A stretch of DNA of 64,000 bases from Anaerolineales bacterium (GTDB taxonomy: Bacteria; Chloroflexota; Anaerolineae; Anaerolineales; UBA11579): contig JAHCIJ010000003.1 of assembly GCA_026129255.1 (NCBI GenBank), positions 124,001 to 188,000 on the forward strand, read 5' to 3'. Numbering within the stretch: position 1 is the first letter of the stretch; each line of letters begins with the position of its first letter. Below the pieces are notes generated by a model. The model was not told the DNA's origin. It ran no database searches and was given only the letters and a program-made list of their open reading frames with translations. Both the position numbers and the translations under genes were made by a program. This document shows positions 37,365 through 59,621 of this stretch, piece by piece.

Positions 37365-37691
37365 ATGACAAACTACCGAAGAGAAGATATGGACGGCTGG
37401 GAATTCAAGATCCTGCGCTCGGCCACCAACGCATTCAAAGACCCGGAAAAGCTCAACTTGGCCGTGGCAGAAGAAGCCGTCTTTGGCTGGGAGCTGCTGG
37501 AGAAGTTTGATAATGGGCGCCTGCGTTTCAAGCGTTCCACAAACGCTCGCAAGATGCCGGCGCCCACCGGCAGCGACCCGTATCGTACTGAATTTGGAAT
37601 GAGTGAAGGCCGCATAGCAGCCTATGTGGTGTTGGGCATTATTGCGTTCTTTGCGATCGTGGGTATAGTCGTTACAGTATTCGTCAACTAG
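37365..37691 (+). CDS. Small single-pass membrane protein, unknown
   Basis: 108 residues from ATG 37365, which has GAGGAGG five bases upstream. A cytoplasmic part (WEFKILRSATNAFKDPEKLNLAVAEEAVFGWELLEKFDNGRLRFKR) precedes a C-terminal helix (IAAYVVLGIIAFFAIVGIVVTVFV). The tryptophan-rich GWELLEKFDNGRLRFKR resembles small DUF4177-like domains. An earlier ATG at 37299 would add an Ala-rich extension and is less likely. It lies between slipin and the CPBP-ABC gene. Confidence 0.75.
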   Translation: MTNYRREDMDGWEFKILRSATNAFKDPEKLNLAVAEEAVFGWELLEKFDNGRLRFKRSTNARKMPAPTGSDPYRTEFGMSEGRIAAYVVLGIIAFFAIVGIVVTVFVN

Positions 37692-37706
37692 GTTTCACGT
37701 GAAACA
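37691..37706. promoter_or_regulatory. parS: parS-like centromere site 1
   Basis: GGTTTCACGTGAAACA matches the chromosomal parS consensus TGTTTCACGTGAAACA in 15 of 16 positions; the inner 14 bases are a perfect palindrome. It lies 12 bases before the start of the CPBP-ABC gene. Confidence 0.85.
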
Positions 37707-37718
37707 TCGGGAGCATTT

Positions 37719-39623
37719 ATGAACACATTGGACACCCGCCGCATCGGAATATTCCTGGCAATTGCCTTTGCCCTGTGCTGGGCCTTTGCCGCGGTGATCT
37801 ACGCCACCGGCGGTTTGATTGATAGCCCCGAGATCCTTCCGGGCACCGGCATCACCCTGGCAGTGGCGTTGCTGGCCCTGGGCTGTATGTGGTCACCGGC
37901 CATCGCCCACATCCTGACGCGTGTGATCACGCGCGAAGGCTGGAAGGATCTGTGGCTGCGGCCCAACACCGGGCGCTCCTGGTTCAGCTGGGTACTGGCC
38001 TGGTTTCTACCGGGCATCATCACCCTGCTGGGCTTGGTGGTGTACTTCAGCGTGTTCCCGGCCCACTTTGACCCGAGCCTCTCTCCTCTGCAAGGCTTGC
38101 TTGACCAGGCCGCCGAGCTGGCCGGGCAGCCGCTGCCTTTTGATGTCTGGACAGTGATGCTCATTCAAATCGGCCAGGGCATGTTGCTTGCCCCCATCCT
38201 CAATGGCTTCTTTACCTTTGGCGAGGAGTTTGGCTGGCGTGCCTACCTGCAGCCCAAGCTGATGCCGCTGGGTTTCCGCAAGGCCATGCTGGCCGTCGGC
38301 GTCATCTGGGGCTTGTGGCACGCGCCGATCATTGCCATGGGGCATAACTATGGTTTTGGCTACCCTGGCGAGCCGTGGACCGGCATCCTGGCTATGACCT
38401 GGTTCGCCATCCCACTGGCGGTCATCATCGGTTGGCTGACCCTGCACAGCCGCAGTGTATGGCCGGCGGTCATCTTCCACGGCGGCATCAACGCGCTTGG
38501 CGGCATTGGGATCTATATGCTGCAGATGGAAGCGCCTGGCCTCAACTCGCTGCTCGGCCCGGTGCCAACCGGCGTGCTGGCCGGCCTGCCCTCGGCCCTG
38601 TTTGCAGCTTACCTGCTGTGGAAGAACGGCGATGTGGGCGGCGCCATGACGGATGTTTCACGTGAAACATCCCCAAAAGCCCCAGCCCCTAGTGCGACAG
38701 ACGCCATTGTCGCGCAGGGGCTGACCAAGCGCTTTGGCGACCTGGAAGCCGTCGACCATCTCGATATCAAAATCCCGGTTGGAGAAGTATTCGGGTTGCT
38801 TGGCCCCAACGGTGCTGGCAAGACCACCAGCATCCGCATGCTGGCGGCGCTGATCGCCCCCACGGAAGGCGAGGCCTGGGTGGCCGGTCACCGCGTGGGG
38901 GAGGATGACACAGCGCTGCGCAAGGACATTGGCATCCTCACGGAAACTCCGGGGATGTACGAGCAGTTGAGCGCCGAGCGCAATTTAGGTTTTTTTGCCC
39001 AGATGTATGAAGTGGAAGACATCCCTGGCCAGGTCGAGCGCTATCTGCGCATGCTGGGTTTGTGGGGCCGCCGCCACGAAGCGGTGGGCGGCTTCTCCAA
39101 AGGTATGCGCCAGAAGCTGGCGATCGCGCGTGCGCTGCTACACGAGCCCAAAGTGATATTTTTGGATGAGCCCACCAGCGGGTTGGATCCCGAAGCTTCT
39201 CGTGTGGTGCGTGATTTCATCGAGGAGTTGCGCGGCGAGGGACGCACCATCGTCATCACGACGCATAACCTTGACGAAGCGGACCGGCTGTGCGACCGCA
39301 TCGCCGTGTTCAAATCCAAGCTGCTGGCGGTAGACACGCCCAATGCGCTACGGCGCAAGCTGTTCGGCCGCTCAGTAGTGTTCCACTTGGCCGCTGCCCA
39401 AGAGGCTTTTGCCAACGCGCTGCGCCAAAAAACCTATGTGCATGAAGCCAATTTGCGCGGCGACAAGATCGTAGTGAAGTTGGATGACCCAGAAACCCAC
39501 AACCCTGAGCTATTACGCGAGCTGGTGGGCCTGGGTGCGGATGTGCAGTTTGTGGGCGAGATCCGCCAGAGCCTTGAAGACGTGTACTTCCAGCTGCTAG
39601 GTGCACAAGGAGTGCAGGCGTGA
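37719..39623 (+). CDS. CPBP intramembrane protease fused to ABC-transporter ATPase
   Basis: 634-residue fusion. Residues 1-310 form a multi-helix CPBP (Abi-type) glutamic intramembrane protease with FGEEFGWRAYLQP (EExxxR), WGLWHAPI and FHGGINALGG carrying the catalytic Glu/His set. Residues about 325-634 form an ABC-2-type ATPase: LLGPNGAGKTT, the Q-loop region LTETPGMYEQLS, GGFSKGMRQKLAIARALLHEPKVIFLDEPTSGLDPEA. The linker DVSRETSPKAP is encoded by a perfect parS-like palindrome. An internal ATG (38646) could start the ATPase alone. ATG 37719 has GGGAG upstream. The ATGA overlap with the permease gene shows they form one transporter. Confidence 0.9.
   Translation: MNTLDTRRIGIFLAIAFALCWAFAAVIYATGGLIDSPEILPGTGITLAVALLALGCMWSPAIAHILTRVITREGWKDLWLRPNTGRSWFSWVLAWFLPGIITLLGLVVYFSVFPAHFDPSLSPLQGLLDQAAELAGQPLPFDVWTVMLIQIGQGMLLAPILNGFFTFGEEFGWRAYLQPKLMPLGFRKAMLAVGVIWGLWHAPIIAMGHNYGFGYPGEPWTGILAMTWFAIPLAVIIGWLTLHSRSVWPAVIFHGGINALGGIGIYMLQMEAPGLNSLLGPVPTGVLAGLPSALFAAYLLWKNGDVGGAMTDVSRETSPKAPAPSATDAIVAQGLTKRFGDLEAVDHLDIKIPVGEVFGLLGPNGAGKTTSIRMLAALIAPTEGEAWVAGHRVGEDDTALRKDIGILTETPGMYEQLSAERNLGFFAQMYEVEDIPGQVERYLRMLGLWGRRHEAVGGFSKGMRQKLAIARALLHEPKVIFLDEPTSGLDPEASRVVRDFIEELRGEGRTIVITTHNLDEADRLCDRIAVFKSKLLAVDTPNALRRKLFGRSVVFHLAAAQEAFANALRQKTYVHEANLRGDKIVVKLDDPETHNPELLRELVGLGADVQFVGEIRQSLEDVYFQLLGAQGVQA
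38652..38671. promoter_or_regulatory. parS: parS-like centromere site 2 (perfect, inside coding sequence)
   Basis: GATGTTTCACGTGAAACATC is a 20-base perfect palindrome containing TGTTTCACGTGAAACA (38654-38669), an exact match to the ParB-binding consensus. It encodes DVSRETS at the junction of the CPBP and ABC halves. Confidence 0.9.
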
Positions 39624-44944: not shown

Positions 44945-46030
44945 TTACTTGGCTTTGCTCTCCTCTCGCAACAGCTGGCGGAGGTGGTCGATGGGGCGGC
45001 GCTGGCTGGTATGCGGGTCGACGTAGTACCAGTGCTGCCAGCCGTTGGCGGGGCCATCCAGCGCGTCTTTGGCGAGCTGGTGGATGGAGCCGCGGCGGCC
45101 GTTGTACTTGAGCGAGCCGTCGGCGAGGATGCGGGCGCTCTCGCGGCCCTTCTCGCCTAAGTAGAGGCGCTGGCCAGCCTCGAGCAGGCCGGCTTCCAGC
45201 AGGTTGCCGAAGGGCACGCGTGGCTCGCGGCGGGGCTCGTGGGGTTCAAAGAGGGCTTCTTCGTAGGCCACGGGTTCGATCTGGCCGAGGCGGCGGCGGG
45301 CGAGGCGCACATAGGCGGCATCTCGCTCAATGCCGAGCCAGTTGCGGTGCAGGCGCTTGGCGACGGCGCCGGTGGTGCCGGAGCCAAAAAAGGGGTCAAG
45401 CACCAGGTCGCCGGGGTTGGTGCTGGCGAGCAGCACACGGTAGAGCAATGATTCCGGCTTCTGGGTCGGGTGCGCACTCTCGCCATCGGCACGCAAGCGC
45501 TCTCCCCCGGAGGCGATGGGCAGCAGCCAATCGCTGCGCATCTGCTTGTCTTCGTTGAGCGATTTCATGGCATGGTAGTTGAAAGTGTAGGGCGCACCCT
45601 GCTCCTTCTGCGCCCAAAGTAGGGTTTCGTGGGCGTTGGTGAAGCGCGTGCCGCGGAAATTGGGCGTGGGGTTGGCTTTGACCCACACGATGGAATTGAG
45701 CAGCCAATAGCCGAGGTCTTGCAGGATGCTGCCGACGCGATGGATGTTGTGATAGCTGCCGATGACCCATAGGGTGCCACTTGGCTTAAGAACGCGTCGG
45801 CAGCCAGCCAACCAGGCACGCGTGAATTCGTCGTAGGCGGCGAAGTCATCGAAGCGATCCCAGTCCTCCTGCACGCCGCGCACTTTGGTGTTGTTGGGGC
45901 GGCGCAGCTCACCGCCGAGCTGCAGGTTGTAGGGGGGATCAGCGAATACGAGGTCTACCGAGTTGGCGGGGAGCTTGGCGAGCTCATCCCGACAATCGCC
46001 GTGGAGGATGGTGTTGTGAGGCAAAGACAT
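44945..46030 (-). CDS. Beta-class adenine-type DNA methyltransferase with C-terminal RAMA-like domain
   Basis: 361 residues. Motif IV DPPY (31-34) precedes motif I FGSGTTGAVA, the beta-class order shared with CcrM and HinfI methylases. HPTQKPE and the C-terminal GRESARILADGSLKYNGRRGSIHQLAK..GWQHWYYV match the RAMA domain found in CcrM-like enzymes. N6-adenine methylation, perhaps of GANTC, is likely by family but not proven. No restriction gene is adjacent, so it appears to be an orphan methylase. ATG 46030 is chosen; a hairpin overlaps its upstream region. It lies 2 kb left of the putative origin. Confidence 0.9.
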   Translation of the reverse strand: MSLPHNTILHGDCRDELAKLPANSVDLVFADPPYNLQLGGELRRPNNTKVRGVQEDWDRFDDFAAYDEFTRAWLAGCRRVLKPSGTLWVIGSYHNIHRVGSILQDLGYWLLNSIVWVKANPTPNFRGTRFTNAHETLLWAQKEQGAPYTFNYHAMKSLNEDKQMRSDWLLPIASGGERLRADGESAHPTQKPESLLYRVLLASTNPGDLVLDPFFGSGTTGAVAKRLHRNWLGIERDAAYVRLARRRLGQIEPVAYEEALFEPHEPRREPRVPFGNLLEAGLLEAGQRLYLGEKGRESARILADGSLKYNGRRGSIHQLAKDALDGPANGWQHWYYVDPHTSQRRPIDHLRQLLREESKAK

Positions 46031-46056
46031 CGGCCCCATTATGGATAATGGGGCCG
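46031..46056. promoter_or_regulatory. Perfect hairpin directly upstream of the methyltransferase start
   Basis: CGGCCCCATTAT/ATAATGGGGCCG with a two-base centre, touching ATG 46030. There is no T tract. In RNA it would sequester the ribosome-binding region, and in DNA it is a 26-base palindrome, so it is a candidate regulatory site. Confidence 0.55.
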
Positions 46057-46094
46057 ATTTGTGCTGAGAATGTGGATGTTTAGTTGCAGGGGAT

Positions 46095-46742
46095 TTAATC
46101 GATTTCACCCTCAAATATCCAAGGGCCATACACAGTCTCGACAAAGGCGTCATAAATTAGCCGATTGGCCTCGTCGTCAGATAGTGCTTCAGGCTTGGTC
46201 TCGATACGATAGCCCTCCATGCCGCCGTTATCCAAAGCCTGTGAGTAGCATGAAATTGTGATGCCTGTATTGGCAGCATTGAGCTTCGCCTGAGCGCCGT
46301 CGCAATCATGCGTAGCGAAACTGGTCTGCAAGAATGGAATGACGATGCGGAATTTGTTTATCGTTTCGTTTCCTAAAGGGAACCGGACAAAGTCACAGCG
46401 AACCGCGGATTCAATATCGGTCTCGGGAACCAGCAAGCCTATTTCAAACACACGCGAACTCTGTGTGTTGTACTCCAACACAGTCTGGTCTCCAATTAGC
46501 CAGTCGAGTCCGATTATGGGACGTTCAAAGCAAACATCCGCAACAAAATACATTTGCTCCACGCGGAAGTTGCTTGCCGTAACAGTGATGCCGTTTGCTT
46601 CTGCTTGGAAGCTGGTTGTAGCGACGGCGCTGCGGTTACCTTCAATCTCTTGTGCGTTTTGTGGAACACTGTCAATTGGGGCAGCCTGGCTGTTGCAGGC
46701 CGCTAATATAAGTAGCCCTGCTGCAAACGAGAGTTTGGACAA
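46095..46742 (-). CDS. Putative lipoprotein, unknown function
   Basis: 215 residues. The start is taken as TTG 46742, which has GGAGG at ideal distance and gives a clean signal (SKLSFAAGLLILAAC, lipobox LAAC). The upstream ATG at 46784 would bury that signal behind 14 extra residues. The mature part is beta-rich (NGITVTASNFRVEQMYFVADVCFERP...DWLIGDQTVLEYN) and has several Cys. No family recognised. Less GC-rich than its neighbours. Confidence 0.75.
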   Translation of the reverse strand: MSKLSFAAGLLILAACNSQAAPIDSVPQNAQEIEGNRSAVATTSFQAEANGITVTASNFRVEQMYFVADVCFERPIIGLDWLIGDQTVLEYNTQSSRVFEIGLLVPETDIESAVRCDFVRFPLGNETINKFRIVIPFLQTSFATHDCDGAQAKLNAANTGITISCYSQALDNGGMEGYRIETKPEALSDDEANRLIYDAFVETVYGPWIFEGEID

Positions 46743-48061: not shown

Positions 48062-48143
48062 GCCGAAGTGGCGGAACTGGCAGACGCGCGCGACTCAAAA
48101 TCGCGTTCCCTTGGGAGTGTGGGTTCGATTCCCACCTTCGGCA
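48062..48143 (+). tRNA. tRNA-Leu(CAA)
   Basis: Class II tRNA with acceptor stem GCCGAAG/CTTCGGC, anticodon stem CGCGA/TCGCG around loop CTCAAAA (anticodon CAA, reads UUG), a long variable arm (TCCC-TT-GGGA) and the T arm GTGGG-TTCGATT-CCCAC. CCA is not encoded. A terminator follows at 48150. Confidence 0.96.
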
Positions 48144-48149
48144 CAACCT

Positions 48150-48176
48150 AAAACGCCCCTTTTGCAGGGGCGTTTT
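48150..48176 (+). terminator. Terminator after tRNA-Leu
   Basis: AAAACGCCCCT/AGGGGCGTTTT, loop TTTGC minus closing pairs, followed by a short T run. Confidence 0.88.
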
Positions 48177-48199
48177 GCGTTCTCTCTGCAGCTTCTTTT

Positions 48200-48600
48200 T
48201 GTGTATAAGTCGCCCTGTTTCTGTGGACAAGTGCGTGGATTTGTGGATAGCAACCCGTGCCTATCCTGTGGGCATCCCAAGCGGCTACTCGCTAGTTATC
48301 TACGTCTGTTTCCTGGTAACTCTGTGGGGGTATTGGGTATAAGGCGGATAACAACGCTGTCTGCGAAACGACGCTGGGTACTCCGCATCCCGTACAGCGT
48401 CCCTGTGTGTGTAACGAGCACCCCAAAAAGCGGCGCATACAGGGAACATTAGCCAGAAGGAGAGCTATACAGGGGGGAAACAACTCACAAGGGCTACCTA
48501 TCCACAAATCCACAGCCCCTAGTATTAAGACTAAATAGACAGATACAAGAACTAAAAAGGAGGTTAGGGTTTAAAAGAATTAGAGACTTTTTATTGCCTA
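48200..48600. other. oriC: Putative chromosomal replication origin (oriC)
   Basis: A gene-free 430-base region with DnaA-box-like 9-mers. One mismatch from TTATCCACA: 48200-48208 (TTATACACA on the minus strand), 48222-48230 (TTGTCCACA, minus), 48242-48250 (CTATCCACA, minus) and 48498-48506 (CTATCCACA, plus). Two mismatches: 48334-48342, 48343-48351, 48406-48414 and 48506-48514. After the last pair comes CCCC, then TAG TAT TAA (48520-48528), like the box, GC block and DnaA-trio order of origin unwinding regions, then an AT-rich stretch to 48600. Genes diverge from here, and dnaN and parS-like sites are within 11 kb on either side. dnaA is absent. Confidence 0.75.
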
Positions 48601-48608
48601 GGAGATGA

Positions 48609-49292
48609 ATGACCACAACCTATATCTGGTATGGACATGCCACGTGCGCTTTTGTGATCAACGGACTGCATGTGGTTGTTGACCCCTTCTTTAGGGAAAA
48701 TGCTCAAGCCTCTATCGCCATGGACGATGTTCCGGCGGACTATATCTTGGTGAGTCACGGCCATTGGGACCACTCTGGGGACGTGGAACCTATTGCCCAG
48801 CGCACTGGTGCCATGATCATTGCCAATGACGAGATCGCGCGCTATTACGCCGCCAAGGGATACAAGACCCACGGGCAGCACATTGGCGGCGGCTTCACGC
48901 ACCCATTTGGGTATCTGAAGCTAACGCATGCGGCCCACGGCTCCGGTTTCCCGGATGGCTTCCCCGGGGGCACGGCCAGCGGCTTCCTGCTGACCACTCC
49001 GGAGGGCAAGAAGGTCTACCTGGCCTGCGACACCGGCCTGTTCGGGGATATGGCACTGATCGGCGATGAGGGCGTGGACTTTGCCGCGTTGCCGATCGGT
49101 GACAACTTCACTATGGGACCAGACGATGCGCTCAAGGCGGTCAAGCTGCTGCGCCCCAAGCGGGTCATGCCGTATCACTATTCGACGTGGGACGTGATCA
49201 AGCAGGATGAAGTGGCCTGGGCCGAGCGTGCTCGCAAGGAGACCGATGCCGAAGTGCTGGTGCTGCAGCCCGGCGACACGCTGGAGATATAG
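48609..49292 (+). CDS. Metal-dependent hydrolase, UPF0173 (metallo-beta-lactamase fold)
   Basis: 227 residues. The zinc site HGHWDHSGD (about residues 50-58) and the fold markers GHATCAFVINGLHVVVDPFF at the start, YLACDTGLFGDMALIG and MPYHYSTWDVI near the end match the UPF0173 group. Substrate unknown. TAGGAG precedes the start; an ATG at 48605 is out of frame. First plus-strand gene to the right of the putative origin. Confidence 0.93.
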   Translation: MTTTYIWYGHATCAFVINGLHVVVDPFFRENAQASIAMDDVPADYILVSHGHWDHSGDVEPIAQRTGAMIIANDEIARYYAAKGYKTHGQHIGGGFTHPFGYLKLTHAAHGSGFPDGFPGGTASGFLLTTPEGKKVYLACDTGLFGDMALIGDEGVDFAALPIGDNFTMGPDDALKAVKLLRPKRVMPYHYSTWDVIKQDEVAWAERARKETDAEVLVLQPGDTLEI

Positions 49293-58368: not shown

Positions 58369-58487
58369 AGAACCTCCCCACAATTGGCAGCAACATACAT
58401 CCTAAAGGTATTTAGCGTTATACTCAACTATGCGAGGGTATGCCCTCGCGGAGTACCATTTTGCCTGAACACGGGAGGTTTACGCCC

Positions 58488-59621
58488 ATGAAAGTCTCCG
58501 TCCCTCAAGAGAACCTGGCCCAGGGCCTTAATATAGTCTCTCGCGCCGTTTCTTCGCGCAATACCTACGCCGTTTTGTCAAATGTACTCATTTCTGCAGA
58601 GGATGGGCGTCTAAAACTGTCGGCAACCGACCGTGAGATGGGCATCACCTGCTGGATCAACGCCAAAATTAGCGAAGAAGGCGCAACCACGGTGCCGGCG
58701 CGCACCTTGATTGACCTGGTGTCCACCCTTCCCGGGGAAAATATCGAGCTGGATCTGGCGGTGCGCACGCAGACCCTGCACATCAAGGCTGGCCGCGCTA
58801 AAGCTGAGATCAAGGGCATCGATGCCCAAGAGTTTCCCCCAATGCCAGAGCCGGACAAAGCCAGCGGCATTGAATTGCCTGCTGGCGAATTGAAAGAAAT
58901 GATCCAACAGGTGGTCTTTGCTGCCTCTAAAGATGATGCTCGCCCGGTGCTCACCGGTGTGCTCACCACAGTGGAAGGCAAGGACCTTAGCTTTGTGGCT
59001 GCAGATGGCTTCCGCCTCTCGATCCGCAAAGCCAAGTTGGCCGGCAAGAGCGAACAGAATATGCGCGCCATCATCCCGGCGCGTGCCCTGAGCGAGGTGG
59101 CGCGCATCGCCACGGATGATAAAGACGTGGTGAGCATGGTGATGCCCGCTGGCCGCGGCCAGGTCATCTTCAGCATGAAGAATGCAGAGCTGCGCTGCCA
59201 ATTGGTGGAAGGCGCCTTTCCCGAGATCCAGCAGATCGTGCCTACGGGTTTCAAGACGCGCACCGTGGTGGCGACGGACGCCTTCTTGAAGGCGGCTCGC
59301 CAGGCCGAGATCTTTGCTCGCGAAAGCTCGCACATCACTCGCTTGGACATCAAACCGGGCGAGGGCAACTCGCCGGGTGTAGTGGACATCTCGGCCACGG
59401 CGGAGGAGACGGGCTCCAACGACAGCAAGGTGGATGCCACGGTGGAAGGCGGCTCGGTCTTGATCGCCTTCAATGTGCGCTACCTGCGTGAGGCGCTGGA
59501 GGCCATGAAGGCGCCCAATGTGGCCCTCGAGACGACGGCCCCGGCTGCCCCGGGCGTCTTGCGCCCTATGGGGAACGATGATTTTCTGCATGTAATCATG
59601 CCCATGCATCTGGGCAAGTAA
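58488..59621 (+). CDS. dnaN: DNA polymerase III beta sliding clamp
   Basis: 377 residues. MKVSVPQENLAQGLNIVSRAVSSRNTYAVLSNVLISAEDGRLKLSATDREMGI begins the first of three clamp domains. VVFAASKDDARPVLTGVLTTVEGKDLSFVAADGFRLSIRKAKL is the second, and the C-terminus ends with PMGNDDFLHVIMPMHLGK, the classical clamp ending. The clamp tethers polymerase III to DNA. ATG 58488 has GGGAGG nine bases upstream; a TATACT at 58419-58424 may be the -10. dnaN is often near oriC, which fits the origin proposed at 48.2-48.6 kb. Confidence 0.97.
   Translation: MKVSVPQENLAQGLNIVSRAVSSRNTYAVLSNVLISAEDGRLKLSATDREMGITCWINAKISEEGATTVPARTLIDLVSTLPGENIELDLAVRTQTLHIKAGRAKAEIKGIDAQEFPPMPEPDKASGIELPAGELKEMIQQVVFAASKDDARPVLTGVLTTVEGKDLSFVAADGFRLSIRKAKLAGKSEQNMRAIIPARALSEVARIATDDKDVVSMVMPAGRGQVIFSMKNAELRCQLVEGAFPEIQQIVPTGFKTRTVVATDAFLKAARQAEIFARESSHITRLDIKPGEGNSPGVVDISATAEETGSNDSKVDATVEGGSVLIAFNVRYLREALEAMKAPNVALETTAPAAPGVLRPMGNDDFLHVIMPMHLGK

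Follow-up and report, generated by a model that had tools for sequence, protein, structure and literature searches.

Does the gap between a tRNA-Leu gene and a hydrolase gene in an Anaerolineales bacterium hold the origin of chromosome replication, as an earlier note on this DNA had proposed? The gap lies in a stretch of 64,000 nucleotides, here called the window (G000:C3:124001-188000), of a 2.38 Mb genome in 7 contigs, whose close relatives with names are the Anaerolineales MAGs ACE_CHL1, ACE_CHL7 and DTUCFX4; positions given without a contig are those of the window. A short sequence module in the gap is conserved, occurs once per genome and does not depend on the neighbouring gene; together with a pair of parS sites, the residues kept in the organism's DnaA and a roughly matching whole-genome skew, this leads us to regard 48150-48608 as very probably the chromosomal oriC. 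The gap measures 464 bp and has 48% GC. A tRNA-Leu gene adjoins the module also in the related genomes G001, G004, G007 and G008, and the UPF0173 hydrolase gene is its right neighbour across the whole family. The hairpin behind the tRNA gene (Table 1) probably insulates the putative origin from transcription. Near the module, genes on either side are mostly directed away from it: those to the right are almost all on the plus strand and the first ones to the left, ychF and the genes for a CcrM-like methylase and an M3 peptidase, are on the minus strand, just as the first reading had it. The gene for the CcrM-like adenine methyltransferase (44945-46153, minus strand), 2 kb left of the module, is found near there also in close species, and the enzyme could mark origin DNA.

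Compared with the DnaA box TTATCCACA, the segment 48200-48514 holds ten 9-mers with at most two mismatches, four of which have only one. The earlier note had counted eight near matches, four of them one base off; the four stand, and the total has to be raised to ten. Three of the one-mismatch boxes form a distal array on the minus strand, about 300 bp away from a proximal tandem pair that begins with the fourth, on the plus strand. Each box of the window species is at least one base off the consensus, which counts against an origin and is not so in its relatives; those of family f1, to which the window's genus belongs, often carry perfect TTATCCACA boxes. From 48498 to 48533 the elements are contiguous in the order CTATCCACA-AATCCACA-GCCC-CTAGTATTAAGACTA, and AT-rich DNA follows up to the hydrolase gene, so the succession of box pair, GC block, trios and AT-rich stretch was described correctly at the outset. 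The trio geometry was set after PMC10721633, and trio 4 (AGA) is the one C-centred trio of the window. By its composition the AT-rich stretch is the probable DNA unwinding element. The five weaker 9-mers between the distal and proximal boxes may be low-affinity sites or may have arisen by chance. The GGTTAGGGTTTA motif was absent from the upstream regions of the more distant species that were compared.

Table 1. Features of the proposed origin and its surroundings, in window positions.
Feature	Position	Strand	Remarks
parS GGTTTCACGTGAAACA, one mismatch	37691..37706		pair conserved in seven species
parS, exact TGTTTCACGTGAAACA	38654..38669		10 kb left of module
tRNA-Leu (CAA)	48062..48144	+	left neighbour; ARAGORN, Rfam
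Terminator-like hairpin AAAACGCCCC-TTTTGCA-GGGGCGTTTT	48150..48176	+	3' of tRNA; direct sequence reading
Distal DnaA-box array TTATACACA (48200), TTGTCCACA (48222), CTATCCACA (48242)	48200..48250	-	spacings 22 and 20 bp
Five weaker DnaA-box-like 9-mers, two mismatches (48296, 48334, 48343, 48406, 48449)	48296..48457		positions not conserved
Proximal tandem DnaA boxes CTATCCACA (48498-48506) and AAATCCACA (48506-48514), head to tail	48498..48514	+	conserved in genus and class
GC block GCCC	48515..48518	+	GGCC in most relatives
DnaA-trios CTA GTA TTA AGA CTA	48519..48533	+	lower strand 3'-GAT CAT AAT TCT GAT-5'
AT-rich stretch	48522..48608		31% GC versus 59% for contig
GGTTAGGGTTTA motif	48562..48573	+	3' of trios; alignment, conserved in six close species
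UPF0173 metal-dependent hydrolase	48609..49292	+	NCBIfam NF001911
dnaN	58440..59621	+	TIGR00663; 10 kb right of module

The clustering of boxes was set against the background in 308 kb of contig C3, where 316 bp contain on average 0.071 boxes with at most one mismatch and 0.67 with at most two. Within these 308 kb, the module region is the top window for both counts, and the module provides the sole 500-bp window with at least three one-mismatch boxes. In 2000 dinucleotide shuffles of the region, the means were 0.08 and 1.2 and the maxima 2 and 5 for one and at most two mismatches, respectively. The box count is far above what chance would give.

A 20-base module pattern was then searched in the whole genome and in 301 genomes of the order, with the reversed pattern as a control. 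In the organism's own genome and in eight further species of the genus it had a single match apiece, at this place in every case, and it was present in 62 of the 301 genomes compared with a single match for the reversed control; the conservation in related genomes that an origin should display is thus borne out. A relative of the hydrolase is present in 50 of 61 genomes. The layout with its two ends is found upstream of the hydrolase gene in the window's own genus and in the genera g2, g3, g4, g5 and g7 of family f1, and it has been kept while the sequence between the two ends has diverged. We examined 30 module loci of the order, of which 29 were taken as real and one without boxes (L247) as a chance match. 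In 27 of the 29, distal minus-strand boxes spaced at 20-22 bp, roughly two helical turns, precede the proximal pair by about 220-365 bp. In families f5 and f13, where the distal array with this spacing is also present, the module adjoins homologs of gdh, gatB, spoVS and a gene for a deoxynucleoside kinase; in the window, the same four genes are found 6-14 kb to its right, in a group that also includes dnaN. Since the neighbourhood is the same and the adjoining genes differ between families, the module is part of an old origin-proximal gene neighbourhood whose immediate neighbour changes. Among the features of an oriC we found a box cluster above chance (in 308 kb of the contig), a module pattern unique in the whole genome, an AT-rich element beside the boxes and the same place in related genomes.

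Replication landmarks lie on both sides. dnaN to the right and two parS-like sites to the left were located as the earlier note had placed them, and 0.14 parS matches would be expected by chance. The two sites, 0.96 kb apart, are the only ones with no or one mismatch in each of seven genomes, and the pair lies 10-14 kb left of the module, or 24 kb in G010; the parB gene is sited elsewhere, away from the pair. A third parS-like site, TGTTGCACGTGAAACT, has two mismatches (G000:C3:275140-275155) and counterparts in five other species. It is 9.4 kb from a second pair of DnaA boxes, both of them exact and 12 bp from each other; the pair lies where two membrane-protein-like genes leave a gap of 35 bp (G000:C3:284502-284531; L048:16502-16531). 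This second pair is conserved across three species, at a distance of 104-113 kb from the module (G004:C1:1234311; G007:C1:216871), and is possibly a DnaA-titrating or DnaA-regulated site. dnaA itself is indeed not adjacent to the module; it is located at C3:44801-46219, 126 kb to the left (116 kb in G004 and 133 kb in G007). dnaA is far from the origin in some other known bacteria, too. Two weak Bac_DnaA-like AAA+ matches were noted in one open frame at G000:C2:695080-696048, which has counterparts in the genus.

How such a region might work can be judged by comparison with the basal unwinding system (BUS) of B. subtilis. There, DnaA is concentrated locally by a distal box and directed to the trios by a proximal pair (PMC6669920, PMC8287927); in the B. 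subtilis structure, it is the first two bases of every trio that are captured (PMC10721633). The Anaerolineales module shares with B. subtilis incC/BUS (DnaA-boxes 6 and 7) the tandem boxes, the GC block and the trios, in the same order and on the same strand, as well as a distal box subregion at a distance and the conserved base-capturing residues of DnaA. When aligned with the B. subtilis BUS structure 8btg (E 7e-126), the organism's own DnaA keeps Asn187, Ile190, Ile193, Arg202, Glu228 and Arg264 along with the box-reading motif DHTTVxH of domain IV; the base-capture residues as named in PMC10721633 are thus present, while the position of Asn196 is occupied by Gln. The BUS rule (PMC8287927) allows a box up to two mismatches and a second box up to four, at no more than 16 bp before the trios; here, CTATCCACA (one mismatch) ends 12 bp and AAATCCACA (two mismatches) 4 bp before the first trio. 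Of the at least three consecutive 3'-NAN-5' trios that the rule asks for, CTA GTA TTA supplies three (3'-GAT CAT AAT-5'); several relatives would fail this part because of a middle C. Unlike in B. subtilis, the module is 126 kb from dnaA and its distal boxes form an inverted array with a spacing of 20-22 bp. The separation of oriC from dnaA resembles the rearranged origin of E. coli (PMC6669920), but in contrast to E. coli, dnaN and parS lie within about 10 kb and the BUS layout is kept. By its layout the putative origin belongs to a known kind; what deserves further attention is the A-or-C middle base of the trios.

By analogy with the B. subtilis system, DnaA binding, unwinding and firing would take place at these elements, conserved and unique in the genome as they are. 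DnaA made from the gene 126 kb away would occupy both the distal array on the minus strand and the proximal tandem pair. From the pair, an oligomer would grow across the GC block until it reached the lower-strand DnaA-trios; capture of two bases per trio would melt the AT-rich DNA as far as the hydrolase gene, the helicase would be loaded there, and ParB-parS would segregate the new origins from the sites 10 kb to the left.

Strand skew, which the earlier note had brought in with reservation, agrees in part, and here the note needs correcting. Whole-genome skew was calculated from 36% samples of the single-contig relatives G004 and G007. Cumulative skew has its minimum at 1085-1121 kb in G004 (module at 1121.6 kb) and its maximum at the antipode; in G007 the minimum is near 356 kb (module at 321 kb) and the maximum near 1460 kb. 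The sampled genome-wide minimum, in a skew that is weak and uneven, is therefore within about 40 kb of the module, but the fine sign switch in G004 and G007 is found about 36 kb to its left (window 6-16 kb) and not at the boxes. In the window's own genome this switch is less sharp; G001 has it near -24 kb, and in G010 it falls about 24 kb right of the module. Gene direction was considered as the cause of the offset and rejected, as orientation-corrected fourfold-degenerate sites still switch at -36 kb. If replication started there (window about 11-13 kb, from clpC to a small regulator gene), the module would be a mere DnaA-binding site, and the sharp fourfold-site switch in G004 and G007, kept despite a fourfold-site divergence of 0.38-0.40 between species, speaks for this. 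We nevertheless consider such a start very improbable. No species has a DnaA-box cluster or an origin-like element at the place of the switch (four were compared for genes), nor was rRNA or another known RNA found there; the nearby segment 10797-13330 beside clpC is an insertion hotspot whose accessory genes differ between all four species compared, in G010 the switch is sited elsewhere, and the full unwinding module sits at the other place. Furthermore, gene blocks have been reshuffled freely between G010 and G004 across the -36 kb line, so that blocks from both its sides are intermixed in G010 on one side of the module, whereas almost nothing has been exchanged across the module and no block near it has changed sides; the exceptions are a block at a distance of about 400 kb and some scattered genes, maybe paralogs. 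The G004-G007 dot plot was uninformative because the two genomes are collinear. With no box cluster at the hotspot and blocks mixing across the -36 kb line but not across the module, we retain the module as the origin. An old inversion beside it would be the simplest account of the 36 kb offset, although at the given fourfold divergence the skew of the block in G004 and G007 is less faded than expected.

Clusters of DnaA boxes are also known to titrate DnaA or to serve DnaA-regulated promoters, and the trios end 75 bp ahead of the hydrolase start, so that a datA- or DARS-like site or a control region of the hydrolase gene, without an origin, has to be considered. It seems very unlikely: the locus has all parts of an unwinding module (box pair, GC block and trios), which is present once per genome, and in other families the module adjoins unrelated genes, so that it does not serve the hydrolase. 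This speaks strongly for an origin and against a promoter. Least credible of all is an accidental accumulation of DnaA-box-like words in AT-richer intergenic DNA: two-mismatch 9-mers are common, but the shuffles never attained the observed count, and conservation across family and class refutes it. Read as an oriC, the locus would pin down the replication origin of uncultured Chloroflexota that have relatives in anammox reactors, enabling growth-rate estimates from read depth, and would place a B. subtilis-type unwinding module far from dnaA in Anaerolineae, within one gene neighbourhood whose immediate neighbours change.

In B. subtilis, the middle A of a trio contacts Asn187 via its amine; C can substitute for it, G and T only poorly (PMC10721633). 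The rule of PMC8287927 demands A at this position, and the use of other middle bases has been raised as a possibility only (PMC10721633). We analyzed 55 origins of the class that bear the module, drawn from 37 genera. The CTA that follows the GC block was taken as first trio and set the frame, and seven matches with another first trio were set aside as chance matches; the search pattern itself fixed the first trio, and a few of the class-wide matches may be non-origins, as their surroundings were not read. With one origin taken per genus, A makes up 67% and C 29% of the lower-strand middle bases in trios 2-4, against 4% for T and 1% for G. Amine-bearing middle bases account for 106 of 111, as against 46 ± 4.8 (maximum 65) in shuffles. 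CGA (3'-GCT-5') comes second in frequency among the trios, CTA CGA CGA CGA is the series in some origins, and C-centred trios were also seen at loci L242-L271. Going by these sequences, Anaerolineae origins, unlike that of B. subtilis, probably make natural use of cytosine beside adenine as the middle base captured by DnaA (3'-GCT-5' beside 3'-GAT-5'), whereas G and T hardly occur there. The pattern fits the amine-recognition rule established for B. subtilis with engineered origins, and our literature search retrieved neither a described Anaerolineae origin nor natural cytosine-centred trios. If true, the A-or-C middle base would confirm from evolution that the amine group at the trio middle is what DnaA reads, a natural test of the recognition proposed for Asn187 and hitherto shown on engineered DNA only, and origin finders that demand adenine would miss part of the real motif. 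The third trio base (T on the lower strand) is also strongly conserved in Anaerolineae origins, so that the DnaA of the window's genome, with Gln at the Asn196 position, may differ somewhat in how it reads the trio.
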